In this document: positions 4,872 through 63,342 of the stretch, piece by piece | Layout of the letters: each line of letters opens with the position of its first letter | How positions within the stretch are numbered: the stretch's first letter is position 1 | Assembly (NCBI RefSeq): GCF_037081775.1 | Contig: NZ_JBAMHQ010000001.1 | Span: forward strand, 1,550,001-1,614,000 | Source of the DNA: Haladaptatus sp. ZSTT2 | GTDB taxonomy: Archaea; Halobacteriota; Halobacteria; Halobacteriales; Halococcaceae | Length of the DNA: 64,000 nt | Direction: 5' to 3' | Position numbers and translations under genes: made by a program | The notes under the pieces: generated by a model | What the model was told of the DNA's origin: nothing | Database searches by the model: none | What the model saw: only the letters and a program-made list of their open reading frames with translations

Positions 4872-5291
4872 ATGAACCGACCGTTGAGCGCCATCGCGGG
4901 TGGGGCCGCCGGTATGGCCCTGCTTTCGGTGATGCTCGTCATGTTCGAAGTGGAGACGCGGTCGCAAATCGGGCTGTTCGACGTGATTGCTCGATTCGTT
5001 GGCCTTCCCGGGCAAACGGCGCTTGGCTTCATCCTGTTTGCCCTCGCGGGCATCTTCGCCTGGCCCCTCCTGTTCATCTCGCTCGAAAATTACCTGCCGC
5101 TGTGGCCAGACCCCGCCGTCCGCGGGATGGGCTTTGCCGTCGCCTTCTGGGTCATCTTCATCGTGCTCGGCAGAGGGAGCCTCACAGGCCCCATCTTGCT
5201 GATGTATGGCGTCACAACATTGCTTGCCCACCTCGCCTACGGCTTCACGCTCGGCGCAGTGTACGCGAGCCTCTCGGAGACCCACCCATGA
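4872..5291 (+). CDS. Small membrane protein next to oxidase subunit I (DUF6789-like)
   Basis: A 139-residue protein with about four hydrophobic segments (MNRPLSAIAGGAAGMALLSV; TALGFILFALAGIFAWPLLF; a segment around FAVAFWVIFIVLG; and the C-terminal TTLLAHLAYGFTLGAVYA). I associate it with the haloarchaeal DUF6789 family, which is often found directly before this oxidase subunit. Its stop overlaps the ATG of the oxidase gene by four bases, so the pair is co-translated. A role in oxidase assembly or as an accessory subunit is inference. A TATA-like TTTTTATCCC lies about 15-25 bases upstream. Confidence 0.75.
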   Translation: MNRPLSAIAGGAAGMALLSVMLVMFEVETRSQIGLFDVIARFVGLPGQTALGFILFALAGIFAWPLLFISLENYLPLWPDPAVRGMGFAVAFWVIFIVLGRGSLTGPILLMYGVTTLLAHLAYGFTLGAVYASLSETHP

Positions 5292-7003
5292 ACCCAACCG
5301 TCCTGTTCGTCGCCGCGTGTATCTCACTCGCCACGCTCGCCCTCCTCAGAACGACCGGCTCGAAGCGCCTGCTCACCGACGGCGGGTTTATCGAATCGGC
5401 AGAGACAGCGACCCGTGAGAAACCGGCTGGACTCCTTCGGTGGATTACCACCGTGGATCACGCCGACATCGGGTTGCTCTATTTGCTGCTCGCCACCGTG
5501 GCTGGGCTGTGGGGTGGCATCGACGCGCTCATGATGCGCACCGAGTTGCTCACCGCAGAAACGACGGTGTGGAGTGCAGAGACGTACAACGCGCTGTTCA
5601 CCACTCACGGCATCACGATGCTGTTTTTCTTCGCCACGCCCGTGTTCACGGGGATTGCGAACTACTTCATCCCGACGCTCGTGGGCGCAGACGACATGGC
5701 GTTCCCTCGTGTGAACGCTATCGCGTTCTGGTTGCTGCCGCCCGCGCTGTTGCTCGTACGCGCGGGACTGATTACGGAAGTCATCGCCAAAGTGCTCGCG
5801 CCGCTTGGCTTCCCGACGGCGGCGCTGTTCGCCATCAAGCCGCCGACGATTGGCTGGACGATGTACACACCGATGTCGCGTGCGGTGGCGAATCCAGAGG
5901 TTGACCTGTTCTTGTTGGGTCTCCATCTCTCGGGGATTGCCACCGTGATGGCGGCCATAAACATCATCGTCACCATCGTTGAGGAGCGCGATTCGAGCAT
6001 CATCAACTGGGCGAACCTCGACATCTTCTCGTGGACGATGCTCACCGCGAGCGGCCTCATCATCTTCGCGTTCCCCATGCTCGGGAGTGCCATGATTATG
6101 CTCCTGCTCGACCGGAACTTCGGGACGCTCTTCTACTCGCTCGAAGCCGGTGGCCCCGCGCTCTGGCAACACCTGTTCTGGTTCTTCGGCCACCCAGAAG
6201 TGTACATCCTCGTCCTCCCGGCGTTTGGCATCGTGAGCTACATTCTCCCCAAATTCGCGGGACGCAAGCTGTTCGGGTTCAAGTTCGTCGTCTACTCGAC
6301 GCTCGCCATCGGCGTACTCTCGTTCGGTGTGTGGGCCCACCACATGTTCACCACCGGGATGGACCCCCGGCTGCGCGCGTCGTTCATGGCCGTCTCACTG
6401 GCGATTGCCATCCCGAGCGCCGTGAAAACCTTTAACTGGATAACCACGCTCTACAACGGGAAAATTCGGCTGACCGCGCCGATGATCTTCTGCGTCGGTG
6501 GGATTTCGACGTTCATCATCGGCGGGGTCACGGGCGTCTTCCTCGCCTCGATTCCAGTTGACCTCCTGCTCCACGACACCTACTACGTCGTCGGGCACTT
6601 CCACCTGATTCTGGTGGGCATCATCGTGTTCGCCATGTTCGCGGCGAGTTACTACTGGTATCCCATCCTCACCGGGCGAATGTTCAACCAGCGGCTGGCT
6701 CGGGCGCACGCGTGGGTGAGCATCCTCGGCACGTTCCTCACCTTCAGCCCGATGTTGTTGATGGGATTGGCCGGACTCCCCCGGCGGTATGCCGCCTACC
6801 CCGAAGTGTTCGTCCCGCTCCAGCGCGCCGCCACCGTGGGCGCGCTCATCCTCTTCCTTGGGGTGGGGATGTGGCTCTGGAACATGATACAGTCGTATCG
6901 CGTTGGCGACGTGGTCGAAGACGCAGACGTGTGGAACCTGAAGGAGACAAACCAGTTCGGGCGCGAGTGGGAGTGGTTCGAAGAGCGGTTAGACAGGAAA
7001 TGA
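5288..7003 (+). CDS. Heme-copper oxidase (aa3-type) subunit I
   Basis: A 571-residue catalytic subunit that reduces O2 to water and pumps protons across the membrane. Ligands are all present: H107 (low-spin heme), H302 and Y306 in G-H-P-E-V-Y with E304, H351 and H352 for copper B, and H437 and H439 in V-G-H-F-H. N125, D136 and N143 match the D-channel entrance. The E304 motif marks an A1-type oxidase. The same frame is open upstream to 4811, but ATG 5288 overlaps the preceding gene and gives a normal N-terminus. Subunit II is not in the window. Some databases label such proteins cbb3-type, which the motifs do not support. Confidence 0.93.
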   Translation: MNPTVLFVAACISLATLALLRTTGSKRLLTDGGFIESAETATREKPAGLLRWITTVDHADIGLLYLLLATVAGLWGGIDALMMRTELLTAETTVWSAETYNALFTTHGITMLFFFATPVFTGIANYFIPTLVGADDMAFPRVNAIAFWLLPPALLLVRAGLITEVIAKVLAPLGFPTAALFAIKPPTIGWTMYTPMSRAVANPEVDLFLLGLHLSGIATVMAAINIIVTIVEERDSSIINWANLDIFSWTMLTASGLIIFAFPMLGSAMIMLLLDRNFGTLFYSLEAGGPALWQHLFWFFGHPEVYILVLPAFGIVSYILPKFAGRKLFGFKFVVYSTLAIGVLSFGVWAHHMFTTGMDPRLRASFMAVSLAIAIPSAVKTFNWITTLYNGKIRLTAPMIFCVGGISTFIIGGVTGVFLASIPVDLLLHDTYYVVGHFHLILVGIIVFAMFAASYYWYPILTGRMFNQRLARAHAWVSILGTFLTFSPMLLMGLAGLPRRYAAYPEVFVPLQRAATVGALILFLGVGMWLWNMIQSYRVGDVVEDADVWNLKETNQFGREWEWFEERLDRK

Positions 7004-9469: not shown

Positions 9470-12400
9470 CTACATGAAATCAGAAATCTTCGACGCCTTG
9501 TTTTTGTCATTCTCGAACACCGAGCGAATCGACTGGTCGAGGATGTCGAGACGCTGTTTGGTGTATTCGCGTGCGCCGTACTCGTCTGCGACGCGGATGG
9601 CGGTGTCCACGTACTTTTTCACGGAGCCTTCGTGGACAGTGAGATTGACCCGGCCGCCACACTCGTTGCAGTCACCAGAGAGCGGGAAGCGACGGAACTT
9701 CTTGCCGCAGTCGAGACACCGCGTCTTCTGGCGGGAGAACGCCCGGAGGTTGCCGATGATGTCGGGCATGAAGTGGTACTCGATGACGCGCTCTGCGACG
9801 TCGGTTTCATCGACGGCCCGAAGCTTTCGCGCGAGTTCGAGTTGCGCCTCCATCTTGTCCATCATCGACCCGAGCGTTTTGTACGCAGAGAGGTCAGGGC
9901 CGAGCGCGATGTTCGAGGTGTCGTGGGTGTGGCGAAACTCGGTGTACTCGCGGTCGGTCCCGAGATTTGCCTCGGCGATTTTGATGTCCACGTCGCCGGG
10001 GTCTGCCATCTCGCGGGTCGCCTCGTAGAACTCGCGGGGATAGCGGTCCACGATGTCCATGTTGTGCGCCTCGTCGTCGATTTCCGAGGGGTCGATGCGC
10101 GAGGACATGACGAGCGGAGCGTCCATGCGGCCGCCGCGCTTGTTCGGAAGGTACTGCTTCGAGAAGTTGAGCAGGCCGTCCATGAGGAGCATGACGCAAT
10201 CTTCATCCCCGTCACATTGCTTAACCCCAAGATCATTGGCAATCAATGAGTGGGTGTCAGAAACGGTGATATCATAGAGATATTCGGCATCGCTTTCAAG
10301 AATTTGGACGCTACTAATAGATTCTATCAGGACATCAGAGTCGCCACCATCGAAGACTCGACGGGAGGATATTTGAGTGGAATTTGAAACCCGAGATAGA
10401 ATCTCCTGTTTTCGAGTGAGATGAAATCCGATAGTCGATGCAAATTCTCGTGCATCTTCTGAAGAAATCATGATCACAAACGAAGGTCGGGATGTCAGTG
10501 AATCGTCTATCGAATAGAAATCTGGGAATTTTTCACAGAGTTTTACAGGAGGCTTGCGGTCAACCCGAGCTTTGATTCCGAGTTTGGTTAGCAGAGCAAG
10601 AAGATCTTCAGTGAGTTCTAAACTTACAGTAGTTGCCTGAACGGAGAGATAGTTAGAGGTTGTGTGACCATCTCCACTGAAGTATCCTCTCAAGTAGGCT
10701 GCAACAATTTCGTCTGTTGAATCAAATATGCATTGTGGGACACGCTTCGTATGAGCGAAGATTCCTGCTTCAATAACTGAGTCGAAGAAAGTGCGTAACA
10801 GACGGCCAGAAGCGGTGACTTTGGCCTCATTTTCTTTGTAGGGATTGACTTCAAATTCTTGCTCAAGAGCGTCAATGAAGAATTCACGCGCCTGTATTTC
10901 GGTTCCGCAGATAGTTGTCTGATGAATAGGTCCTTTTGGAGTTTCCTGTTCTCTTGCGAAACCTTCTGCTGTATAATATCCTAATAGAGTCGAAAGCCGT
11001 TCAGTTAATTCAACAGTCCGTTTTATCTTCGCTGTATCTCGCTTCATCCCAAGCATCACATCATCTGGGACGAACTCTAACAGCGCTTGTTCAGAACCAA
11101 GAATTTCGCAGAGAAGGTCAGCAGGGAAACTTTCACGGTATAAATAGTTACTCAGTGTTTTGTGGTTGATACCGAGAATCTTTGCTGTGGTTTTGAGAGC
11201 ATAGAACTCACCATCCCACTGGCCAGATAGATTCTCTTCAAATACCTGATAGAGCGTATCTTTCTCTAAACCATGAATCATCAAACAACTATTGTCGATT
11301 GAGTCGATTTCAAGAAATTCGGATAAAAGGTCGAATTTCTGATTTGTAGTGGAACGAGTTTCCAGATTCAACTGCGTTGGTGTAACAAGACAGTCATCAG
11401 TAGAGAGTTCCAGTGCCTTTTTGCCGGTCACTGAATCATTATCGAAGTCGTAAACTTGGACTTCGTGTTCCGGCGTGACTTTTAGCTCTCGTCCACTGCG
11501 CGTCTCGATTTGAATCAGATGGTCAGGAGAGGGGTGCTTCGAGACTGCTTCAACCCGTTTTCGAACGACTTCACCCTCATCAGTCACCGAAGGCACGAAC
11601 ACGTCACCATCAAGTTCCGAAACGAGCGTCCCAAAGTCGTCCTCGCGTGGATTTTCGAGACGCTCCTCGACAAGCGACTTAATCTCGTCGTAGTGCCACT
11701 CGCCTGCTTCGTCCGCGAACCAAACCTTGGTCGTCGGGTAGAAGCAATTCCGCCGTTTTGCCGCGTGAAAGTACGGATGTGCATATCCCACTGCCGCACT
11801 CGTGAAGCCAATCACGCGGCCGACGACTGCGGCACTCGTGTGGGGAGCCATCCCGAAAACGAGTTCGCCGACCAAATCCTGCCGGTCTTCGAACTCGTAG
11901 AACGGTTCGAGGTCGTAGTACTGGGTCAGCAAGTCATCGACAAAGCCGCCGATGCGGAGCATGTGTTCTGCCGCGCCGTCTGAGAGGACGATGTCCTGCA
12001 CCCGGAGTTCGACCACTTGGTCGTCGTGTTCGAGGGGGTCGCCGTTCATGTCCTCGTAGTAGCCGAGTTCGCGCAGTTGGTCGGCGGTGACGTCGAGTTC
12101 GTCCGCGCGGACGGCAGTGACGGGCAGGTCGGTCATGTCGTAGCGGACGGTGCCGTCTTTGAACACGGAGACGCCGTTTTTGCTCCGGAGGATGCCCTTC
12201 TCCATCGGTTCGGGCGTCTTATGTTTCGATGTGAGGCCTTTCACGCCTTTCAGGATGTCAAAGGAGGTCTCGCGTTCGCCCACGTTATCGAGGGCGTTGC
12301 GGTACTCCTCGCGGATGTTGACCGGGCGGCGCCATTCACTGGAGGCTTCCTTGCCACAGCGCGGGCACTCTGCACGGCCTGCTTCGTCGGGTTCGACCTC

Positions 12401-14500
12401 GATTTCACAGCTCCAACACTCGTACTGGGGTTGGGTCGCACTCTGGCACTTCGGGCACTTGTTTTTGAACGTGATTTCGCCACAGGCGGTGCAGGTGCGC
12501 TTGCCTACGGTGACTTCGACCTCGCCGCGGACGGCGTTGCGGTCGGCGAAGTGGTTCGCGGCTTCCGAAACCGAGCGCTGATTGCCCCCGGCCTCACCAA
12601 TCGGGAACAGGGTGTGAACCGCCGGACTCAGGTCGCGCTTTTCCGATTTTTCGGGCCGCCCCATGCGGTTCCCGATGCGGGTCGGCGCGCGTTCTTGGAG
12701 GGTGAACGGAGCGACTTCGTTCACGGCTTTGTGTGCATTTGGCCATTTTCGGGATTCAGCAGAGAGGTCGTCCCATTGTTTGTCTAACTCCTCGCTGAGG
12801 CCGAGCGACGCGACGAACGGTTTCCACGTCGGGATGCGAATCTCCTCTGGGCCCTGTGAGTGCTCGATGAGGAGCCATTCGAGCGCCTGTCTCGCGTCGT
12901 CCGTGTTCGGCACGTAGAGCGCCCCGTCATCGAGATACCCCTGCGAAACGGTGTCTGCGAGCGTTTCGAACTGCTCGACGGTGAGGTCGTGCCAGAGGTA
13001 GGTGTAGTCGGGATGCAGTGGCGCGTCGTACGCCTCGGCCCACGCAAGCGCTTGGGCTGGGTCAGGGTGTTCTACGTCTACGCGCGCGTCGTCTGCGAGC
13101 GCTTGGACATCTGCGCCCGCGTGCTCGAAGTCCTGAATCCACCACTCGTAGACATACGACGCGGGAATCAACTCGTGGTTGTTCTCGACGAACTCGCCGA
13201 AGTTGACGAGGTACTCCCCGAGGTCTAAGATTTCGACCACACCATTGCGGAGTTTCAGCGCCTCTGCGGGGTCATCAATGCGGCGCACGTCCCCGTTTGC
13301 GAGTTTGACCGTGGGGCCTTCGATGGAGTCAACGGGGATGACCCCACCGGCTTTCCCGGGGCGTTCGGTCTTGATTTGGGTGCCCGTTGCGAGGAAGTCG
13401 TCTACGACGTGCATCGTGGCGGGTTGGACGCCCGCGGTTGCGAAGCCGTGGTTGCGCGAGCGGCCGTAGCGCAGGCGAAAGCCGCCGGGCATGCTCGGGT
13501 GGGAAAAGACGGGGCGGCCCGCAATCAGGTCGCGCAGAAACTTGGTCTTGGGTTTGGCGCGCGGTGGCCCGTCGACTTCTGGTTCCGGCTCGGGTTCGGC
13601 CTCGTCTGCGTCTGCGGCCTCTGTGGGCTCTTCGTCAGTTTCCTCCTCCCCGTCGTCTTTGCCAATGGTGCCGTCGATGAGGTCGTCGAGCCACGGCCAG
13701 TCGATTTCGTCGAGTGCGGAGGTGTAACGCTTGATTTTCGGCGCTTTCTGGGCAATCCCTTCACCGAGGACGAGACACATCCCACCGCGAGGGTTGTTCG
13801 TGCCGACGCGCTCTAGGTCGCGAAACCCGGAAACCTCCTCGCTGCCGGTTGCCTCCCCGTCTAAGCAGATGGGGCAGTTGCGGGCGATGAACTTCGTCTC
13901 TTTGGGCTTTGGCGTGTACTGGAGGCCGGTCTCTTTGTCGTAGAGTTCGAGCTCTTCTGCGTAGCGTTCGACCTCGTCGTCGCGCGGTTTGTACTGGTCG
14001 ATGCCGATGAGCGCGCGGGTGTAGTCTGCGACGAGCACGGACAGCGCTTGTGCCGTCCCACCCGCAGAGCGAATCGGGCCGGCGTAAAACACGCGGACGT
14101 ACTCGCTGCCGTCGTCGTTCGGGACGATTTCGACGCGGTCGATGCCCTCGATGGGTGCGGCGACCACGCCTTCGGTGAGGAGGGCAACCGCCGTCCTGAC
14201 CGCACCTTCGATTTTTCCTTCGCGGGTTTCGTAGTCACCGACTTTGCCGTCTGCGAAGTCTTTGGCGAGTTCGAGCGCCGCCTCCTCACGGCTCATCTGG
14301 TCTTCGAGTTCGCGGACGCGGGCGGCGACCCCGTCGATGCCGAGGATGTTCTCGACGCGGTCTGCCATGTCTTTGGCAATCGGAATCTCGACTTCGGGTT
14401 TGGGGTCGTTGCCCTGCTCTTTTGCCTTCGTCGCGAGCGCCATCGCATCGTCTAAGCGGTTTTCGAGCGTCTCGAAGTAGCGCTCGTCTTCCGGCCTCAT
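9470..14500 (-). CDS. polC: DNA polymerase D large subunit (DP2) with intein
   Basis: A 1676-codon frame coding for the catalytic subunit of the archaeal replicative polymerase D; removing residues 919-1428 leaves 1166 residues, the normal DP2 size. It starts MRPEDERYFETLENRLDDAM and shows several zinc knuckles: C-P-I-C near 210, C-T-A-C...C-P-K-C and C-W-S-C...C-P-R-C near 690-740, and C-L-D-C...C-N-E-C near the end. An acidic linker lies near 290-320. The catalytic string N-C-D-G-D-E-D is cut by the intein between N918 and C1429. The small subunit is encoded at 53355-54860. The start overlaps the upstream PPC gene in an ATGA. Confidence 0.95.
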   Translation of the reverse strand: MRPEDERYFETLENRLDDAMALATKAKEQGNDPKPEVEIPIAKDMADRVENILGIDGVAARVRELEDQMSREEAALELAKDFADGKVGDYETREGKIEGAVRTAVALLTEGVVAAPIEGIDRVEIVPNDDGSEYVRVFYAGPIRSAGGTAQALSVLVADYTRALIGIDQYKPRDDEVERYAEELELYDKETGLQYTPKPKETKFIARNCPICLDGEATGSEEVSGFRDLERVGTNNPRGGMCLVLGEGIAQKAPKIKRYTSALDEIDWPWLDDLIDGTIGKDDGEEETDEEPTEAADADEAEPEPEPEVDGPPRAKPKTKFLRDLIAGRPVFSHPSMPGGFRLRYGRSRNHGFATAGVQPATMHVVDDFLATGTQIKTERPGKAGGVIPVDSIEGPTVKLANGDVRRIDDPAEALKLRNGVVEILDLGEYLVNFGEFVENNHELIPASYVYEWWIQDFEHAGADVQALADDARVDVEHPDPAQALAWAEAYDAPLHPDYTYLWHDLTVEQFETLADTVSQGYLDDGALYVPNTDDARQALEWLLIEHSQGPEEIRIPTWKPFVASLGLSEELDKQWDDLSAESRKWPNAHKAVNEVAPFTLQERAPTRIGNRMGRPEKSEKRDLSPAVHTLFPIGEAGGNQRSVSEAANHFADRNAVRGEVEVTVGKRTCTACGEITFKNKCPKCQSATQPQYECWSCEIEVEPDEAGRAECPRCGKEASSEWRRPVNIREEYRNALDNVGERETSFDILKGVKGLTSKHKTPEPMEKGILRSKNGVSVFKDGTVRYDMTDLPVTAVRADELDVTADQLRELGYYEDMNGDPLEHDDQVVELRVQDIVLSDGAAEHMLRIGGFVDDLLTQYYDLEPFYEFEDRQDLVGELVFGMAPHTSAAVVGRVIGFTSAAVGYAHPYFHAAKRRNCFYPTTKVWFADEAGEWHYDEIKSLVEERLENPREDDFGTLVSELDGDVFVPSVTDEGEVVRKRVEAVSKHPSPDHLIQIETRSGRELKVTPEHEVQVYDFDNDSVTGKKALELSTDDCLVTPTQLNLETRSTTNQKFDLLSEFLEIDSIDNSCLMIHGLEKDTLYQVFEENLSGQWDGEFYALKTTAKILGINHKTLSNYLYRESFPADLLCEILGSEQALLEFVPDDVMLGMKRDTAKIKRTVELTERLSTLLGYYTAEGFAREQETPKGPIHQTTICGTEIQAREFFIDALEQEFEVNPYKENEAKVTASGRLLRTFFDSVIEAGIFAHTKRVPQCIFDSTDEIVAAYLRGYFSGDGHTTSNYLSVQATTVSLELTEDLLALLTKLGIKARVDRKPPVKLCEKFPDFYSIDDSLTSRPSFVIMISSEDAREFASTIGFHLTRKQEILSRVSNSTQISSRRVFDGGDSDVLIESISSVQILESDAEYLYDITVSDTHSLIANDLGVKQCDGDEDCVMLLMDGLLNFSKQYLPNKRGGRMDAPLVMSSRIDPSEIDDEAHNMDIVDRYPREFYEATREMADPGDVDIKIAEANLGTDREYTEFRHTHDTSNIALGPDLSAYKTLGSMMDKMEAQLELARKLRAVDETDVAERVIEYHFMPDIIGNLRAFSRQKTRCLDCGKKFRRFPLSGDCNECGGRVNLTVHEGSVKKYVDTAIRVADEYGAREYTKQRLDILDQSIRSVFENDKNKASKISDFM
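10217..11746 (-). mobile_element. Intein with LAGLIDADG homing endonuclease, in polC
   Basis: The element codes for 510 residues (919-1428 of the precursor). It begins Cys-FYPTTKVW, has a block-B-like T-P-E-H in GRELKVTPEHEV, two LAGLIDADG motifs (L-L-G-Y-Y-T-A-E-G near 10960-10985 and L-R-G-Y-F-S-G-D-G near 10667-10693), and ends YDITVSDTHSLIANDLGVKQ before the Cys of the C-extein. Both motif acids are intact, so the nuclease may be active. The last residue is Gln, known for PolII inteins, and the one before is Lys instead of His. Base composition is clearly more AT-rich than the flanking exteins, a sign of separate origin. Confidence 0.95.
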
Positions 14501-23500: not shown

Positions 23501-23525
23501 GGTTCCAGCGGAAACGAGGGGGTTT
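23501..23525 (+). promoter_or_regulatory. Isolated ORB-like sequence
   Basis: GTTCCAGCGGAAAC followed by GAGGGGGTTT, just two bases after the stop of the preceding gene. Aligned by eye it matches the core of the origin boxes at 57963-57990 at 19 of 22 positions, as well as several boxes inside the origin do. Orc1 binding here is inferred. It lies about 120 bases before the CBS-domain gene. Confidence 0.45.
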
Positions 23526-44615: not shown

Positions 44616-45377
44616 ATGGCATACGAGACACTTCTCGTGGAGCGCGATGCTGGTCGTGTCACGGTAACGCTAAATCGCCCGGAGAAACTGAACGCGATGA
44701 CCGGCGAGATGTTCGTCGAACTGCGCGCGCTGTTTCGGGAGTTAGCAGACGAGGACGTAGACGTGGTGACGATTCGCGGCGCGGGCGACCATTTCTCTGC
44801 GGGCGTGGACATGTCCGGTGTCCCTGAGTGGGCAGAGCAGAAGCCAATCGACGTTCGCGACAACCTCGAAGTCGTCCACGACGCGCTCAGAACCCTTGAG
44901 GCGCTCGACGCGCCCATCGTCGCCGCCATCGACGGCTACGCGCTCGGCGGCGGCCTCGAACTCACGCTTGCGTGTGATATTCGCGTGGCGAGCCACCGGG
45001 CGCAGTTCGGCCTCCCTGAAGCGAACGTCGGTCTCGCCATGGACTTAGGCGGGTCACAGAAGCTCCCCGGCATGATTGGCGAGGGGATGACCAAGTGGCT
45101 CATCATGACGGGCAAGAATATCGACGCAGACCGAGCCTACGACGTAGGCCTCGTCGAACAGGTCGCAGACGCAGGCGAGTTCGATGCGATGGTTGCAGAC
45201 TTAGAGGACACGCTCGCAGAGAAACCGACCTACGTGCTCGGCATCGCAAAGCGTCAGGTGCACTCGGTGCGCCCGCTCAATCTCGATGAATCGATGAACC
45301 AGGCGCTTCATCACGCGCTCACGGCGTATCAAGAAGATGAGACCCAAAAGCTCGTTACGGACTTTTTAGACCGTTAG
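44616..45377 (+). CDS. Enoyl-CoA hydratase/isomerase (crotonase)
   Basis: A 253-residue crotonase-fold enzyme of fatty-acid or related CoA metabolism. The oxyanion string H-F-S-A-G-V-D at 59-65, G-G-G-L-E115-L and L-P-E135-A-N-V-G carry the two glutamates needed for hydration, so it is probably an active hydratase. The loop MDLGGSQKLP after E135 differs a little from the usual P-G-x-G. It ends in a four-base overlap with the convergent MaoC gene, another acyl-CoA hydratase-type protein. Confidence 0.9.
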   Translation: MAYETLLVERDAGRVTVTLNRPEKLNAMTGEMFVELRALFRELADEDVDVVTIRGAGDHFSAGVDMSGVPEWAEQKPIDVRDNLEVVHDALRTLEALDAPIVAAIDGYALGGGLELTLACDIRVASHRAQFGLPEANVGLAMDLGGSQKLPGMIGEGMTKWLIMTGKNIDADRAYDVGLVEQVADAGEFDAMVADLEDTLAEKPTYVLGIAKRQVHSVRPLNLDESMNQALHHALTAYQEDETQKLVTDFLDR

Positions 45378-45820
45378 GCGTCTCGGCCAATCATTCCGAG
45401 GGCTTTCATCGACAGCACCTTTTCGTCGTTTTGATTGTACGTCGAGAGTTCGTAGGTGACGTTCCCGCGCGTCGGGTCGTTTTCTGCGGGCGAGGTTTCG
45501 AGCACTTCGATACGCACAGAGAGGGTGTCGCCCGGCCTGACTGGTTGGAGCCAGCGCAGTTCATCGACACCGGCCGCACCGAGGCTCGCGGTTTTGTTCA
45601 TGAAATTATCGACGAGCAGGCGCATCGTCACCGAGCAGGTCTGCCACCCGCTTGCGATGAGGCCGCCGAACATCGTGTCCGCGGCTGCTTCGGCACTGAC
45701 GTGGAATGGCTGGGGGTCGTACTCCTCGGCAAACTCAATGATTTCGGCTTCGGTGAGCGTGTGACTGCCGAATTCGAAGGTCTGCCCCGGTTCGAACTCC
45801 TCGAAGGAGGCGGGAATCAT
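45374..45820 (-). CDS. MaoC-family dehydratase
   Basis: A 148-residue hot-dog-fold protein starting MIPASFEEFEPGQTFEFGSH. The E-Y-D-P-Q-P-F-H motif near 34-41 holds the catalytic Asp/His pair, and G-L-I-A-S-G-W-Q marks the hydratase site. It acts on enoyl- or hydroxyacyl-thioesters. The frame is open to 45847, but ATG 45820 is preferred. It has no fused dehydrogenase domain. Confidence 0.88.
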   Translation of the reverse strand: MIPASFEEFEPGQTFEFGSHTLTEAEIIEFAEEYDPQPFHVSAEAAADTMFGGLIASGWQTCSVTMRLLVDNFMNKTASLGAAGVDELRWLQPVRPGDTLSVRIEVLETSPAENDPTRGNVTYELSTYNQNDEKVLSMKALGMIGRDA

Positions 45821-45875
45821 GTAGCAGTCGCTTCTCGCCTTGCGCACCTAAACATGTGGGATGTGGTAACTCACT

Positions 45876-45897
45876 ACCCCTTTGTTTCCACTGGAAC
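45876..45897 (-). promoter_or_regulatory. Isolated ORB-like sequence
   Basis: On the minus strand it reads GTTCCAGTGGAAACAAAG then GGGT, matching the core of the origin box at 57963-57990 at 20 of 22 positions, better than most boxes in the origin. It lies in the 175-base gap between two minus-strand genes (45820 and 45996), with no second copy nearby. Orc1 binding is inferred, not shown. Confidence 0.55.
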
Positions 45898-45995
45898 TGT
45901 GGCCGTTTCAGCCGATGAACGGTCGAAAAATAGCCAGAACGGCCAGCTACGAGGGGTTGCAGTCGAAATGAAGGGGTTCGAGAACGCGTACCACG

Positions 45996-46634
45996 TTAGA
46001 TGGGTTCGCGCAGGTGGTCTGCGAAGCCGGTCGAGTCGCGGACGTTGCGAAGAATGATTTCGAGGTGTCCACTCCCGCCGGCGGCGATTTGGACGTTTCC
46101 GAGTCCGACGACGGTTTCGAGCAGCGACCGGTTCTCTTGGATCCCCCTGACCTTAGAAAGCGGGAGTTCCTTGCGGACGAGCGAGATGAATCGGTACTCG
46201 CTGATGACTCGCTCGTTGGTCAGGTAGTAGGTCGTAAGCGAGTTCGCCCAGTAGGTGAACAGCCCCTGTGAGAACAACACCAGCCCGAGGATGAGCGCCA
46301 CGAGCGGGTAGACGAGCGGCTCTTGGGTGAAGTAGGTGAGATACGTCGCAACCGAGAGAAAGACGAAGCCACCGGTGAGCCGGACGGTCGCGACGCGCTG
46401 AGTCGGATGGCGTCGGTCGATGATGTACTCGTTGGCGCTGAGTTGCACCGCCGCTGGGGCCGTCCGCTGGACGTACGCGCCGATGGCGACGATGACGAGG
46501 CCAAACACCACCAGTGCCCAGCCAAGCAGCTGCGGGTAGACGAGGCTGGTCATACCGAGCAGAATCCGCCCACCACCGATGAGAAACGGCAGGGAGATGA
46601 GCACACTCCAGAGGAGCGGTGCGCCGCGGGCCAT
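45996..46634 (-). CDS. PH-domain (bPH2/YdbT-like) membrane protein
   Basis: A 212-residue protein with four hydrophobic segments in two pairs (near 8-25, 35-55, 85-105 and 108-130) and then a C-terminal bacterial PH-like (bPH2) domain starting at N-S-L-T-T-Y-Y-L-T-N-E-R-V-I. The VRKELPLSKVRGIQENRSLL string is typical of YdbS/YdbT proteins. A role at the membrane, possibly in protection or lipid binding, is not defined. Its start overlaps the stop of the next gene by one base. Confidence 0.82.
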   Translation of the reverse strand: MARGAPLLWSVLISLPFLIGGGRILLGMTSLVYPQLLGWALVVFGLVIVAIGAYVQRTAPAAVQLSANEYIIDRRHPTQRVATVRLTGGFVFLSVATYLTYFTQEPLVYPLVALILGLVLFSQGLFTYWANSLTTYYLTNERVISEYRFISLVRKELPLSKVRGIQENRSLLETVVGLGNVQIAAGGSGHLEIILRNVRDSTGFADHLREPI

Positions 46635-47380: not shown

Positions 47381-47552
47381 TGTTGTTCCCCACTAGATAC
47401 GTCAGAACCATCGAAAACTGATTGCGTGGGAAAGTCACGCAAAGGCGTGGTACCAAAACCATATTTTCGACTGCACAGCGTTACGCATTCACAAGACACG
47501 AGAATGCAGATAGGACACATTCAGGGCGTTTTACACTCGAAATAAGGGGGTT

Positions 47553-47703: not shown

Positions 47704-47837
47704 CCTTGCTGCACACATCGGTAGACTGTGCCCCTTTGTAAGCGTTGCGCGTTCGCCCGCGGTGTGTCAGTGGGTTTCGCACGGACGAACGTGCATATAT
47801 CGACGCCTACTTATGCCCAACCTATGCAGTACCGTGT

Positions 47838-52975: not shown

Positions 52976-53362
52976 ATGGACGTGCGGGATGCCGTCGAAG
53001 ACGATGCAGGCACACTGGCAGAAATGACCGGTTCGCCAAGCGATGTCATGCGGAACCTGATTCACGACCGCAGTGTGCGCGTCGCAGAGGACGAAGGCGA
53101 CATCATCGGGTTCGTGAGCTTCGACGCAGAACAACAAACCGTGTACGTCACCCAACTCTCGGGTGAAATGACCGTCGCAAAACGATTGCTCGACGAACCG
53201 CTCAGATTCGCGACCAAAGAGCAGATGAGCGTCGAACTCCTCGTGCCGGAAGACCAAAACCCGATTCTTGATGCCGCAGACAGCGTCGGGTTCAGCCGCG
53301 TTGGGAGGGGACCACGATTCGATTCAGTGCCGACGGTCAAGTTTCGCAAAGACCCTAATTGA
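52976..53362 (+). CDS. GNAT-like small protein
   Basis: A 128-residue protein, MDVRDAVEDDAGTLAEMTGS onward, with strand order and the late D-A-A-D-S-V-G-F-S-R-V-G-R string similar to small GNAT acetyltransferases. The acetyl-CoA loop (R/Q-x-x-G-x-G/A) is not clear, so the call is tentative. A TTTAATG string 25-30 bases before the ATG is the TATA element. It ends eight bases inside the convergent polymerase gene, so 3' ends overlap. Confidence 0.65.
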   Translation: MDVRDAVEDDAGTLAEMTGSPSDVMRNLIHDRSVRVAEDEGDIIGFVSFDAEQQTVYVTQLSGEMTVAKRLLDEPLRFATKEQMSVELLVPEDQNPILDAADSVGFSRVGRGPRFDSVPTVKFRKDPN

Positions 53363-54860
53363 ACGAGCGAATCGTCATTTCGAGCGTGTCTAAGTCGACG
53401 ATAGGCGCGAAGCCGGAGTCCGGGTTGATGTTCACACTTTTCTGGAAATCCGTCTGTGCCTGCCAACAGCCGCTGTTGAGCGCAAGCACGTTGTGGTACA
53501 TTCCGTAGCCGAGTTTGTGGACGTGACCGGTGTGGAAGATGTCCGGGACCTCGTCGATGACGAGATAGTCCTTCTCTTCGGGTGCAACCCGCGTGTGACC
53601 GCCGTACTGTGGCGCGACGTGGCGCTTTTTCAGGAGTTGGTACATCGCCTTGTGTGGCTCTTCGTAGCTGGCTTTGTCCGCGGGAAGCTCTGCGATGACC
53701 TCGTCGAGTGACACGCCGTGGTACATCAACACGGACACGCCTTCGAGCGTGACGACGGAGGGGTTCGACGCAATCTGTGCGTCGTGGGCGGTCATTATAT
53801 CTCTGAGTTCGTCGGAAAACCCGGGTTGGGGTTCTGCGAGGCGCACCGCGTCGTGATTGCCCGGAATCATCACGATTTCCATGTCGCCGGGCACCTCCTT
53901 CAGGTACTCAGAGAACTCCTCGTACTGGTCGTAGATGTCGATGATGGTGAGTTCTTCGTCCTGATTCGGGTAGATGCCGACGCCCTCCACCATGTCGCCC
54001 GCGATACACAGATACTCGACGTGTTCTGCCTCCTCGGTGTGGAGCCAATGGGCGAAATCACTCCACGCGTCGGCCATGAACTCCTGGCTGCCGACGTGCA
54101 CGTCGCTGATGAGCGCCGCCTGTACGTGGCGGTCTGCGGTCGAGGGCTTGTGGGTGCGCGGGATGTCCGGGAAGTAGAGCGATTCGACAAACAAGATACC
54201 TGCGTCGTCAGAGAGCGTTCCGTCCACGGCGATGACTTCGTCGAGTAAAATCTCGTTGACGAGGTCTGCGAGCGGTCGGTCTTTCATCACGAGACACGGG
54301 AACACGCCGTTCGTGTCCTCAAGTTCGATTATCCAGTGGCCGTTGGCGGTCGAACGCACGTCACTGACCATCCCGATGATGCCCGCCTCACTGTTTCCGG
54401 GCATGGACTTGAGCGCGCGCGTCGTGCGGTGGTTCACGCGCGAGCGGAGTTTTGCAGACAGCCGCTCGTAACGGTCGCGAAACACGGCGACGAAGTCCTC
54501 ATATCGCCCCGTTCCGGTGCTCTCGCCGGTCATATCGTTCGCAATCTGAAGCGAGCGAAGCGAGTGGTCGACCGTCCGCTCGAACGCTTCGGGCGCGGTT
54601 TCAACTGGAGTCGAATCCGGGACACTATCGACCGCAGTCTGTACATCTGCAGTGGAAGCAGAGGGGTCACTCTGGTCGAGAACAGCCCGGACGTGGGCGG
54701 CGGTGAGTTTGAGCGCATCCGCAGGGAGCGTATCGAGCGCAAGAGTGAGCGTGCGCGTCGGGTCGGCCGAACTCGCGATGAGGGTGACCGCTTCGCGTTC
54801 AGCGTTGTATCCCCGGCTGACGAGTTCGCTGACGACGCGGGCGTCGCTCTCTAAAGGCAC
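53355..54860 (-). CDS. polB: DNA polymerase D small subunit (DP1)
   Basis: A 501-residue exonuclease subunit. After an N-terminal helical part and an OB-like domain (GIIGMVSDVRSTANGHWIIE), the Mre11-like phosphoesterase domain shows S-D-V-H, G-D-M-V-E-G, G-N-H-D-A, Y-H-G-V-S, G-G-H-T-R and T-G-H-V-H, all intact, so 3'-5' proofreading is expected. The frame runs to 55022, but GTG 54860 gives the usual P-L-E-S-D-A-R start. CTATACTTTTG about 30 bases upstream is the TATA element and supports this GTG. Confidence 0.93.
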   Translation of the reverse strand: MPLESDARVVSELVSRGYNAEREAVTLIASSADPTRTLTLALDTLPADALKLTAAHVRAVLDQSDPSASTADVQTAVDSVPDSTPVETAPEAFERTVDHSLRSLQIANDMTGESTGTGRYEDFVAVFRDRYERLSAKLRSRVNHRTTRALKSMPGNSEAGIIGMVSDVRSTANGHWIIELEDTNGVFPCLVMKDRPLADLVNEILLDEVIAVDGTLSDDAGILFVESLYFPDIPRTHKPSTADRHVQAALISDVHVGSQEFMADAWSDFAHWLHTEEAEHVEYLCIAGDMVEGVGIYPNQDEELTIIDIYDQYEEFSEYLKEVPGDMEIVMIPGNHDAVRLAEPQPGFSDELRDIMTAHDAQIASNPSVVTLEGVSVLMYHGVSLDEVIAELPADKASYEEPHKAMYQLLKKRHVAPQYGGHTRVAPEEKDYLVIDEVPDIFHTGHVHKLGYGMYHNVLALNSGCWQAQTDFQKSVNINPDSGFAPIVDLDTLEMTIRSFN

Positions 54861-54952
54861 ATCTGTCTGTCTTCGGGGAGTGCCAAAAGTATAGCGAACC
54901 ACTAGCGGGTCAAAGCCAAACGTTGAAACGACCACCCTGCGAACGACCGCTA

Positions 54953-55660
54953 ATGAGTGTCCCGGGTGACCGACCCGACGAAGAGCCGTCCGGAGTCGTC
55001 GGATGGCTTCGATGGCTTGCAACCACCGACCACGAGGGGGTTGCCTACGCCCGCGAACTGCTCGTGAGCGTGGGCGCAGTCGTCCTCGTCGGGCTCATCT
55101 TGTTCGCCGTGAGCGGCATCTGGCCGCCGATGGTCGCCGTCGAAAGTGGCAGTATGGAGCCCAACATGATGACGGGCGACCTCGTGTTCGTGATGGAAGA
55201 ACACCGCTTTGCGGCGGGTGAAGCCTACGACGAAACGGGGGTTGTGACCAACGCCATCGGCGCACACACGGAGTACGTCAAATTCAACAACTACGGCGAC
55301 GTCATCGTGTTCCAGCCCAACGGCAACAGCGGAACGACCCCGATTATCCACCGGGCGATGTTCCACGTAAACGAGAGCGAAAACTGGTACACCAAGGCGA
55401 ACCCCGACTACATCCAAGGGGCACAAAACTGCGAGCAACTCGCCCACTGCCCCGCCCCGAACGACGGCTTCGTCACGAAAGGCGACGCAAACAGCATCTA
55501 CGACCAAGTCGGCAACCAGAACCCCGTCCGCCCGTCGTGGGTGATTGGCACCGCGGAGTTCCGCATCCCGATTCTCGGCAACATCCGGCTGTGGGTCTCA
55601 GAGACGTTCTCGCTGTTCGGCGGGATGGTTGCATTCGGACGGCCACGGCTGTTCGCCTGA
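54953..55660 (+). CDS. Signal peptidase I, archaeal type
   Basis: A 235-residue membrane protease removing Sec signal peptides. An N-terminal soluble part of about 35 residues precedes one membrane helix (LLVSVGAVVLVGLILFAVSG). The catalytic serine is S67 in S-G-S-M-E-P, H133 in I-I-H-R replaces the bacterial lysine, and D178 in K-G-D-A-N completes the site, as in eukaryotic Sec11. The frame is open 30 bases upstream; ATG 54953 is preferred. It diverges from the polymerase gene. Confidence 0.92.
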   Translation: MSVPGDRPDEEPSGVVGWLRWLATTDHEGVAYARELLVSVGAVVLVGLILFAVSGIWPPMVAVESGSMEPNMMTGDLVFVMEEHRFAAGEAYDETGVVTNAIGAHTEYVKFNNYGDVIVFQPNGNSGTTPIIHRAMFHVNESENWYTKANPDYIQGAQNCEQLAHCPAPNDGFVTKGDANSIYDQVGNQNPVRPSWVIGTAEFRIPILGNIRLWVSETFSLFGGMVAFGRPRLFA

Positions 55661-55699: not shown

Positions 55700-57205
55700 T
55701 TAGTTATCGAACCGCGCTTGGACGAACGGTTGGACGTCGCCAATCTCGCTGAGGCGTGAATCTGAGAGGAGGACGGCTTCTGTCTCGTCGATTGGCACAG
55801 ACAAGCTGATTTCTTTCGTGCGCCCGTAGCGCCCCTTGCTCACGACGACGGCGTTTACGATGCCGAGCATGTCGAGTTCGCTGATGAGGTCGGTGACGCG
55901 GCGCTGGGTGAGGATGTCGGCGTCGATTTCGCCACACAGGCGCTTGTAGATGTTGTACACCTCGCCCGTGTTGATGTTGTGGACGCCGTTTTTCTCGAGC
56001 ATGATAGTCGAGAAGAGTACGAGTTTCGACTGCGTTGGAAGGGTGCGGACGACTTCGACCACGCGGTCGAGTTCGATTTTGTCCTGTGCCTTGCGGACGT
56101 GTTTCTCCTCGACGCGGTCTATCTGGTCGCGCTCTGCGAGTTCGCCCGCCGTCCGAAGCAGGTCGAGCGCGCGGCGTGCGTCACCGTGTTCCTGGGCGGC
56201 GAACGCCGCACACAGTGGAATCACGTCGTCAGAAAGTGAGTCGGGCTTGAACGACACGTCCGCCCGGTGTTGGAGGATGTCGCGCAGTTGATTCGCGTCG
56301 TACGGCGGGAAGACGATTTCTTCTTCGCCAAGCGAGGATTTCACGCGCGGGTCGAGGAAGTCGGTGAACTTGAGGTCGTTCGAGATGCCGATGATCGAGA
56401 TGCGGGAGTTGTCGAGTTCCGAGTTCATCCGCGAGAGATTATAGAGGGTGTCATCGCCGGATTTCTCGACGAGTTTGTCGATTTCGTCGAGCATGATGAC
56501 GACGACGCGCTCGTTGTAATCGACGGCTTCGAAGAAGGTGGTGTAGACGCGGTCGGTTGGCCACCCGGTCATCGGCACGGGTTCGAACGACGCGAGGTCG
56601 TCTTCGAGTACCGACAGGCGCTCGTCGAGCGCGTCAAGCGAGGCAAACCGAGTCTCTTCGAGTGCCGCAGAGTCATCGGCCGCGCGCTCGCGCAACGACT
56701 CCAGACGGTCGAGTTTGTCTTCGATGACCTGCTCGTTTTTCTCGATGAACTTGTTCGCGAGCTGCGCGAGCACGCGATACTGGGTGTCGGTCACCTCGCA
56801 GTTGATGTACTCGACCTCACACGGCACTTCGTACTTCTGTGAGGTGGTTTCGAGTTCTTTCGAGACGAACTTCGCACTCGCCGTCTTGCCGGTCCCGGTC
56901 TTGCCGTAGATGAGGATGTTAGACGGCGTCTCCCCGCGCAGTGCGGCGACGAGAATCGTCGCCATGTTGTTGATTTGCTCTACGCGGTGGGGGAGTTTGT
57001 GCGGCGTGTACGACGGGCGGAGCACCTCCTTGTTCTCGAAGATTGGCTCACCGCTCAAGAGGTCGTCAAACAGCCCTTGTGACGCCTCTTCCGGGTCTTC
57101 GAGGCCGTGGTCGTCTAAGACGACGTCGTCTAAATCCACGTCGAACTCTCGACTGGTGTCTGTGTCGTCAGTACCGCCATCCGTGTGTGTTTCGTCAGGT
57201 GCCAT
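55700..57205 (-). CDS. orc1: Orc1/Cdc6 origin-binding initiator
   Basis: A 501-residue AAA+ initiator that binds origin recognition boxes and loads MCM. A disordered acidic N-terminus (about 45 residues) precedes Walker A G-K-T-G-T-G-K-T at 101-108. Walker B is V-V-I-M-L-D-E-I-D ending at 243, and between the two lies a charged helical insert at about 150-215. The C-terminal winged helix is near 415-490 (LTQRRVTDLISELDMLGIVN). Its place beside the origin and oapABC marks it as the oriC1-type initiator. Confidence 0.94.
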   Translation of the reverse strand: MAPDETHTDGGTDDTDTSREFDVDLDDVVLDDHGLEDPEEASQGLFDDLLSGEPIFENKEVLRPSYTPHKLPHRVEQINNMATILVAALRGETPSNILIYGKTGTGKTASAKFVSKELETTSQKYEVPCEVEYINCEVTDTQYRVLAQLANKFIEKNEQVIEDKLDRLESLRERAADDSAALEETRFASLDALDERLSVLEDDLASFEPVPMTGWPTDRVYTTFFEAVDYNERVVVIMLDEIDKLVEKSGDDTLYNLSRMNSELDNSRISIIGISNDLKFTDFLDPRVKSSLGEEEIVFPPYDANQLRDILQHRADVSFKPDSLSDDVIPLCAAFAAQEHGDARRALDLLRTAGELAERDQIDRVEEKHVRKAQDKIELDRVVEVVRTLPTQSKLVLFSTIMLEKNGVHNINTGEVYNIYKRLCGEIDADILTQRRVTDLISELDMLGIVNAVVVSKGRYGRTKEISLSVPIDETEAVLLSDSRLSEIGDVQPFVQARFDN

Positions 57206-57212
57206 CGATTAT

Positions 57213-57235
57213 CTCCCCTATCTTTCGGGTGGAAC
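57213..57235 (-). promoter_or_regulatory. ORB-like box at the orc1 start
   Basis: On the minus strand it reads GTTCCACCCGAAAG then ATAGGGGA, 18 of 22 positions as in the consensus of the other boxes. It lies 8-30 bases before the orc1 ATG, over the promoter, so Orc1 could repress or time its own gene. A clear TATA element is not seen there. Confidence 0.55.
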
Positions 57236-57737
57236 TGATACGACGGCCCGGGAGAGAAGCCCGCAGCCGCCCTAGAGACGCCTTTCCGGCGAGTAGATTC
57301 GTGTTCGCACGTCCACTTGATGCAGACGAACCAGAGGTAGAATATCTATTAAAGGTTGTGCTTTGCGGAGGACTGAACTGGTGGAAATCGACGGAAATCG
57401 GCTGACAGCGCCCCACTCTGGATGGATTTTGGGTCGGCAGTGAATAGTGAGCCTGAAGGGTGGTGTTTCAACTCGAACGGCCCGCAATCAGTTGTGAGCC
57501 GCCGATCACCTGCCCGCGAGAGACGAGAACGAGTGAACTAGACGGGTGAGTGCCAACAGAATCGACGACCGAACGGTCCGGATGACACGCTCGAATAGGG
57601 TTTGGAGGGGAAACGAAGGTCGGGGTCGGAAACAGGTGAATATCTCCGGTTGGTCGTGGAGCGATGGATTTGTGCCCGAGTCAGTTGTGGTGAGCCGTTT
57701 CGACCGCGCACCCGAGATTCGACCACAGAAACAGCAT

Positions 57738-57762
57738 GGTTCGACCGGAAACGGAGGGGTTG
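57738..57762 (+). promoter_or_regulatory. Origin recognition box candidate
   Basis: GTTCGACCGGAAAC followed by GGAGGGGT, 19 of 22 matches by eye to the box at 57963-57990, pointing with its G-tract toward the origin centre. Confidence 0.6.
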
Positions 57763-57962
57763 TTGTTGCAGTTTCTCTAGTGAGACTAGGTTGCACTAGA
57801 AGAGAAGGGGTTGAATGATGAAGTACTAGAAGAGAATCTAGGATAATCCGAGTGTTGTGAGTGTATGACATGGTCGATTCGAGGGCAGGCTAGTGGTTCG
57901 TCTGTGAGGGGTTCAGTGAAGATGTCACTGGAGATGGACGAGTGCTCAGCCGGGAAGGGATG

Positions 57963-57990
57963 CCCCCCACCCCTTTGTTTCCGGTGGAAC
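57963..57990 (-). promoter_or_regulatory. Origin recognition box, left of the AT-rich core
   Basis: On the minus strand GTTCCACCGGAAAC, then AAAGGGGTGGGGGG. It has the full dyad GTTCC-n-n-n-GGAAAC and the long G-tract of haloarchaeal ORBs. Together with the box at 58155 it brackets the duplex-opening region. Confidence 0.85.
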
Positions 57991-58033
57991 GAGAAAAAGG
58001 AGGGGAGGGGGTCGAGCGGGAGCCTTTGTAAAG

Positions 58034-58067
58034 AGGTATCTTTATATGATAGATAGTTCAACCATAA
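58034..58067. other. AT-rich duplex-unwinding element candidate
   Basis: The run AGGTATCTTTATATGATAG and the following ATAGTTCAACCATAA is the most AT-rich stretch between the two best ORBs and contrasts with the surrounding GC-rich DNA. Origin opening at this place is inferred from position. Confidence 0.6.
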
Positions 58068-58154
58068 CCGTAGTAGAGAAAGTCGTGCTGTTTGTTGTGT
58101 TGGTGCTAGTGGAATTAACTGGAACTGACCAGTCCATCCTCACCCACTTGGGTC

Positions 58155-58183
58155 GCTCCACTCGAAACAAAGGGGTGGGGGGC
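58155..58183 (+). promoter_or_regulatory. Origin recognition box, right of the AT-rich core
   Basis: GCTCCACTCGAAACAAAG followed by GGGTGGGGGG, in the opposite orientation to the box at 57963. The 12-base stretch AAAGGGGTGGGG is identical in both. Confidence 0.85.
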
Positions 58184-58484
58184 TAGATTCCTGTCTTCGC
58201 TTCACTTCGACATCGGCTAACCGCTTGATTTGCTGGCTGAGAACGCTCTTTCCTCCACAATTCATATTCCCTATTCTCGCCCACTCCATTAACAATCGCT
58301 AGAAATCCGGTGCGCGACCCCGTCTAGTTCAGGTGGAGTCGCGTGTGTTGTGCCCCCGCACTGTCGTGAGTTACTCGACCCAGCTGTTTTTAGCGGCAAG
58401 TATTGCAGCCCCGCTCACTTCGCTCATGGCTCAACGACTGGTCAACAGTCAGTCAAAACAGAATTTAGACACATACTCGCCAGA

Positions 58485-58507
58485 ACCCCCTTGTTTCGGG
58501 TGGAAAC
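58485..58507 (-). promoter_or_regulatory. Origin recognition box candidate, distal right
   Basis: On the minus strand GTTTCCACCCGAAAC then AAGGGGGT, 19 of 22 matches by eye. It lies about 200 bases before oapA. Confidence 0.65.
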
Positions 58508-63206: not shown

Positions 63207-63342
63207 CCTCGATAAATCGGCCGCATCACCTGGCTTAACCCCTTCATTTCGACTGCAAATCTGCCGCTACATGTGCGTACACACCCGGTGTGCGCTCTCG
63301 ATTTATACCTAGTATTTTATTACTTGCCGACTGACTGTTGCT

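Follow-up and report, generated by a model that had tools for sequence, protein, structure and literature searches.

The window analysed here, the whole 64-kb stretch G000:C1:1550001-1614000 of a 2.74-Mb chromosome contig (whole genome 3.23 Mb), contains the oriC1 region (57215..58506), in which five main origin recognition boxes (ORBs) at 57215-, 57739+, 57970-, 58155+ and 58486- lie upstream of orc1. The origin core (57970..58175) is formed by the inverted ORB pair 57970(-)/58155(+), which has its G-strings pointing outward and flanks an AT-rich element of up to 72.5% AT in 40 nt. The orc1/cdc6 gene (55700..57205, minus strand) is the presumed source of the binding protein. About 10 bp separate the end of the oriC1 box at 57215-57235 from the start codon of orc1 (57205) downstream, a location that would suit orc1 autoregulation, and a box just upstream of the orc1 start is also present in both congeners examined (G001 and G002). 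Elsewhere on the contig (G000:C1:4214-9716), boxes of another type (ATTTCACCGGAAACCCGGTGT) surround a second orc gene (4990-6099) and probably mark a further origin that has a box family of its own. Within the window, the gene for the large subunit of DNA polymerase D, DP2 (9470-14500, 1676 codons), seems on visual inspection of its sequence to carry an intein.

At 12.1 kb from the origin core, a further ORB (45877..45897, minus strand; GTTCCAGTGGAAACAAAGGGG; G-string leftward) lies between two minus-strand genes, one for a MaoC-like dehydratase (45374..45820; PF01575), downstream of the box, and one for a PH-domain (bPH_2) membrane protein (45996..46634; PF03703). Read on the minus strand, positions 45876-45897 give GTTCCAGTGGAAACAAAGGGGT, which is identical to the best oriC1 box (57969-57990; GTTCCACCGGAAACAAAGGGGT) at 20 of 22 positions, and the box has both the TTCCA..GGAAAC core and the GGGG string of an oriC1-type ORB. 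Scored with a weight matrix derived from 28 oriC1 boxes, which came from several genomes, the box reached 32.0 bits, within the range of true oriC1 boxes (23–35 bits) and above three of the five main oriC1 boxes of the window (34.1, 33.5, 31.6, 30.4 and 29.3 bits). These results bear out an earlier note on this DNA, which had counted the same 20 of 22 matches, rated the box above several of those in the origin and placed it between two genes about 12 kb away. Its claim of an Orc1-type box outside the origin is likewise well supported, but the description of the box as isolated was wrong: an inverted partner lies at 45956..45976 (plus strand; GTTGCAGTCGAAATGAAGGGG; 23.7 bits; G-string rightward), and there are further boxes at 23502(+), 47530(+) and 63239(-). 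Shuffled sequences, reversed-pattern controls and a genome scan together ruled out a chance match as the origin of the 45877 box. In 60 dinucleotide shuffles of the window, no 21-mer scored 19 bits or more (best, 18.4), and the reversed pattern gave a single match across 46 genomes. We are virtually certain that 45877-45897 is a real oriC1-type box and one half of a pair.

The two arms are 79 bp apart from start to start and their G-strings face outward, in the same orientation as the pair of the oriC1 core. The pair thus shares with haloarchaeal oriC1 ORBs the box itself, with its dyad core and halophile G-string, as well as the inverted arrangement. It differs from the oriC1 core in lying 12 kb away, in having a spacer of 58 bp (45898..45955) rather than 164 bp and in its surroundings: no AT-rich unwinding element was found between the arms, where the spacer has 43% AT against a window mean of 39%, and no orc gene adjoins the pair, the nearest being that at 55700-57205. 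Nor does the pair form the dense box cluster of known titration sites, as it comprises two boxes in 100 bp.

In both congeners, the pair is flanked by the same two genes and its 79-bp spacing is unchanged. The strong arm is identical at 21 of 21 positions in G001 and at 19 of 21 in G002, the more distant of the two. Between the source genome and G002, the weaker arm is also identical at 19 of 21 positions, while only 23 of 58 spacer positions agree; the spacer has thus diverged in sequence at constant length. We consider it very probable that the ORB pair is under selection.

The other boxes of the window, which we term outposts, occupy varied positions. One (47530..47550, plus strand; TTTACACTCGAAATAAGGGGG; 23.4 bits) lies 195 bp upstream of a PurO-like gene at 47745, identified by eye; it is conserved in G001 and G002, and three further genomes (G021, G101 and G172) have a site near a PurO-like gene. 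Another (23502..23522, plus strand; GTTCCAGCGGAAACGAGGGGG; 28.3 bits) directly follows the stop codon of a DUF7529 gene and has a counterpart in G001, and a third (63239..63259, minus strand; TTTGCAGTCGAAATGAAGGGG; 22.6 bits) is located 3' of a methyltransferase gene, with counterparts in G001 and G002. A weak box (54646..54666, plus strand; TCTGCAGTGGAAGCAGAGGGG; 16.5 bits) lies inside the gene for DP1, the small subunit of polymerase D (53355..55022, minus strand). Outside the window, two direct ORB-like boxes (TTTCCACCCGAAAC) stand exactly 150 bp apart at G000:C1:1508008-1508178, about 100 kb from oriC1, and are conserved in a congener (G001:C1:1250737-1250907).

A whole-genome scan of the source genome found only four non-oriC1 sites within one mismatch of the oriC1-type pattern, at -34.6, -12.2, +134 and +178 kb from oriC1. 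We then used a tight pattern (YTYCASYBGAAAYNNNGGGG, no mismatch) on 26 mostly single-contig genomes; with the source genome added, 80 of 86 non-origin ORBs fell within 200 kb of oriC1, where 10.8 were expected, and 52 of them lay no further than 50 kb away, against an expectation of 2.7. Because this pattern had been shaped after some dispersed boxes were seen, it was frozen and rerun on 20 hold-out genomes. There, 43 of 47 non-origin ORBs lay within 200 kb of oriC1, against 6.2 expected; once the DP1 zone was left out, the figures were 20 of 24 and 3.3. The excess near oriC1 is large in both sets, and the statistics treat related genomes as independent, so that P values are indicative only. 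The tight pattern yields about 1–7 outposts per genome. The earlier note had held that many equally good matches at random positions would speak against it; the opposite was found, with very few matches, clustered around oriC1. We hold with high confidence that the pair belongs to an origin-proximal set of ORBs that is general to haloarchaea. Closeness to oriC1 is not strictly required, since DP1, together with its ORB pair, is 1.5 Mb away from oriC1 in G101 and 156 kb away in G039; a DP1 pair can thus persist elsewhere, at least temporarily.

Flanking genes were read by similarity and with a crude gene caller, which placed 8 of the examined sites between convergent genes, 18 between tandem genes, 11 between divergent genes and about 12 inside genes. 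Placement at promoters, as for the operators of a transcription factor, is therefore not a property of the class, because many sites lie between convergent genes or inside genes; what the sites share is their distance to oriC1 and neither a promoter nor any gene function. Some locations recur, namely the gap behind OapC, the region upstream of the PurO-like gene, the 3' side of a Cgi121-like gene, hef and, most prominently, DP1. Most outposts are single boxes or pairs, and inverted pairs elsewhere near oriC1 were found in DP1, behind OapC and upstream of PurO. Two species of one genus carry an inward-facing ORB pair, 82 bp from start to start, within hef, a helicase/nuclease gene (L208:3789-3891 and L209:2581-2683). 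By eye, the pair spacings (44, 52, 55, 67, 73, 79, 81 and 83 bp) share no single helical phase. Two loci from the pair scan (L121 and L122) were set aside, as they lie beside other orc genes and lack an oriC1-type box.

In many genera other than that of the window, the DP1 coding sequence carries an inverted ORB pair. The two boxes, spaced by 52, 55, 67 or 73 bp, lie in a variable linker and encode PSVSTG...SPVETKG at a fixed frame (examples in Halobacteriales are L193:7262-7337 and L264:1314-1386). In a sample of 30 genomes picked without regard to ORBs, and hence a fair test, 16 have the inverted pair, and in about 8 others only the right-hand box is present, at roughly that position. The codons GTT, ACT, GGA, CCA and GAA within the boxes are minor codons in these genes, which suggests that selection acts on the DNA and not on the protein, with the reservation that the codon counts come from ORB-selected loci and are biased for that reason. 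In the window's genus, DP1 has only the weak single box at 54646, possibly a decayed relic of the pair of other genera, and the MaoC pair is found instead. It is as if outposts turn over while having one near oriC1 persists.

We infer that the boxes serve as outposts of oriC1. Binding by Orc1 in the cell is likely. Each arm of the pair would accommodate a single Orc1 molecule, the G-strings pointing outward as they do in the origin core, and because the spacer is short and not AT-rich, Orc1 is expected to bind there but not to start replication. Titration or tethering of Orc1 is a more likely role for the pair than initiation. Outposts within 200 kb of oriC1, as most are, would be duplicated soon after the origin fires, and competing for Orc1 or holding it near the origin, by titration or by bridging to the origin, would therefore be their most likely job. 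The simplest account would be an Orc1 sink or reservoir that is replicated right after the origin. That the pair acts as such an outpost, competing for or holding Orc1 to limit or time initiation, has in our judgement an even chance of being correct, and we put titration or a reservoir as the main function of the boxes at a similar level. With so few outposts per genome, the sink would be small, unless Orc1 is in short supply or what counts is how concentrated it is locally. Among the three roles that the earlier note had suggested for the box, the titration or origin-linked one fits best, gene regulation is possible for the MaoC pair without explaining the whole class of sites, and a secondary origin is unlikely in view of the missing AT-rich unwinding element.

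The strongest competing explanation, which we regard as doubtful, is transcriptional control: as an operator of the MaoC-like dehydratase gene, the pair would be recognised by Orc1 or a different Orc/Cdc6 paralogue, linking fatty-acid/PHA metabolism to the replication cycle. The strong arm lies 56 bp upstream of the MaoC ATG and at 53–56 bp in all three species, and it adjoins a GTGGTAACnCAC motif (45863-45874), conserved in all three, and a possible TATA/BRE element. Because this motif and a CACCTAA element are conserved on the MaoC side, a promoter of the MaoC gene is probably also present beside the pair, and the GTGGTAACnCAC motif is a possible operator of that promoter. Some outposts, such as that at PurO, are upstream of genes, and in other archaea the non-initiator Orc1-2 regulates DNA-damage-responsive expression (PMC9738581). 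Against this, the class of sites is tied to oriC1 distance and not to promoters, with many members between convergent genes or in coding sequence, and no box was found near the MaoC paralogues of other genera. The MaoC gene family was accordingly rejected as the explanation of the box, its link being genus-limited; a MaoC search of genome contigs returned one haloarchaeal relative, in Halopenitus malekzadehii (45% identity), and otherwise distant bacteria.

Less probable still is a role in which the outposts do not count the initiator but let Orc1 bridge or cluster the oriC1-proximal part of the chromosome, in the manner of parS/ParB. In bacteria, origin-proximal centromere sites are few and spread near the origin. 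The outposts resemble them by analogy, being few sites that are spread over about 200 kb to either side of the origin and have varied gene surroundings, and inverted pairs could seat two Orc1 molecules; pair spacings, however, vary from 44 to 83 bp, which gives no hint of a single fixed complex. The data do not distinguish the sink from such bridging or domain organisation by Orc1.

That the pair is a dormant or vestigial secondary origin is very improbable: inverted ORBs with outward G-strings do form the minimal oriC1 of Haloarcula hispanica (PMC3936714) and the oriC1 core of the source genome, but the 58-bp spacer, at 43% AT, holds no AT-rich element and no orc gene adjoins the pair. Equally disfavoured is the idea that the boxes are neutral remnants of an origin region that was once wider and have stayed near oriC1 solely through the highly syntenic gene order around it in haloarchaea (PMC3528665), as the boxes are far better conserved than the spacer (19/21 against 23/58), DP1 boxes turn up in different families, with a fixed reading frame, among genomes sampled independently of ORB content, and the sites lie at different genes in different genera.

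The preferred reading, of outposts that hold or compete for Orc1, has partial parallels in known systems. The closest is oriC2D of Haloarcula hispanica, an ORB-rich region downstream of cdc6E that limits oriC2 and for which titration of Cdc6E has been proposed (PMC3936714; PMC4010727). There too, initiator boxes share a replicon with the origin but lie outside it, they are not expected to act as an origin themselves and a sink for the initiator is likely; unlike oriC2D, which packs 11 boxes into 722 bp as one dense cluster immediately behind the initiator gene (PMC3936714), the outposts are single oriC1-type boxes or pairs dispersed over about 200 kb. The datA and DnaA-box clusters of bacteria are comparable by analogy of function, as non-origin initiator boxes that lower the free or active initiator (datA acts in the conversion of DnaA-ATP to DnaA-ADP; PMC4585315), but initiator and box are unrelated, and outposts are single or paired. 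The main survey of haloarchaeal ORBs covered only intergenic regions next to orc/cdc6 genes (PMC3528665), and our search of the open-access literature turned up no account of oriC1-type boxes dispersed around oriC1 or lying in DP1. The boxes themselves are known; what appears to be new is the way they are arranged, as conserved outposts close to the origin.

More broadly, we tentatively propose, at somewhat less than even probability, that haloarchaea have an origin-centred domain that extends about 200 kb to either side of oriC1 and is marked by scattered Orc1 boxes (single or in inverted pairs, one pair lying in the DP1 coding sequence), through which Orc1, a eukaryote-like initiator, may sense origin number or organise the region. 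Such a domain would be an archaeal counterpart of bacterial initiator-titration or parS-type systems. How initiation at a given origin is limited is poorly understood in archaea, and conserved, countable Orc1 boxes outside the origin make titration and origin-domain organisation testable in tractable haloarchaea. With exact coordinates, and with possible synonymous-codon variants in DP1, the outpost role is directly testable.
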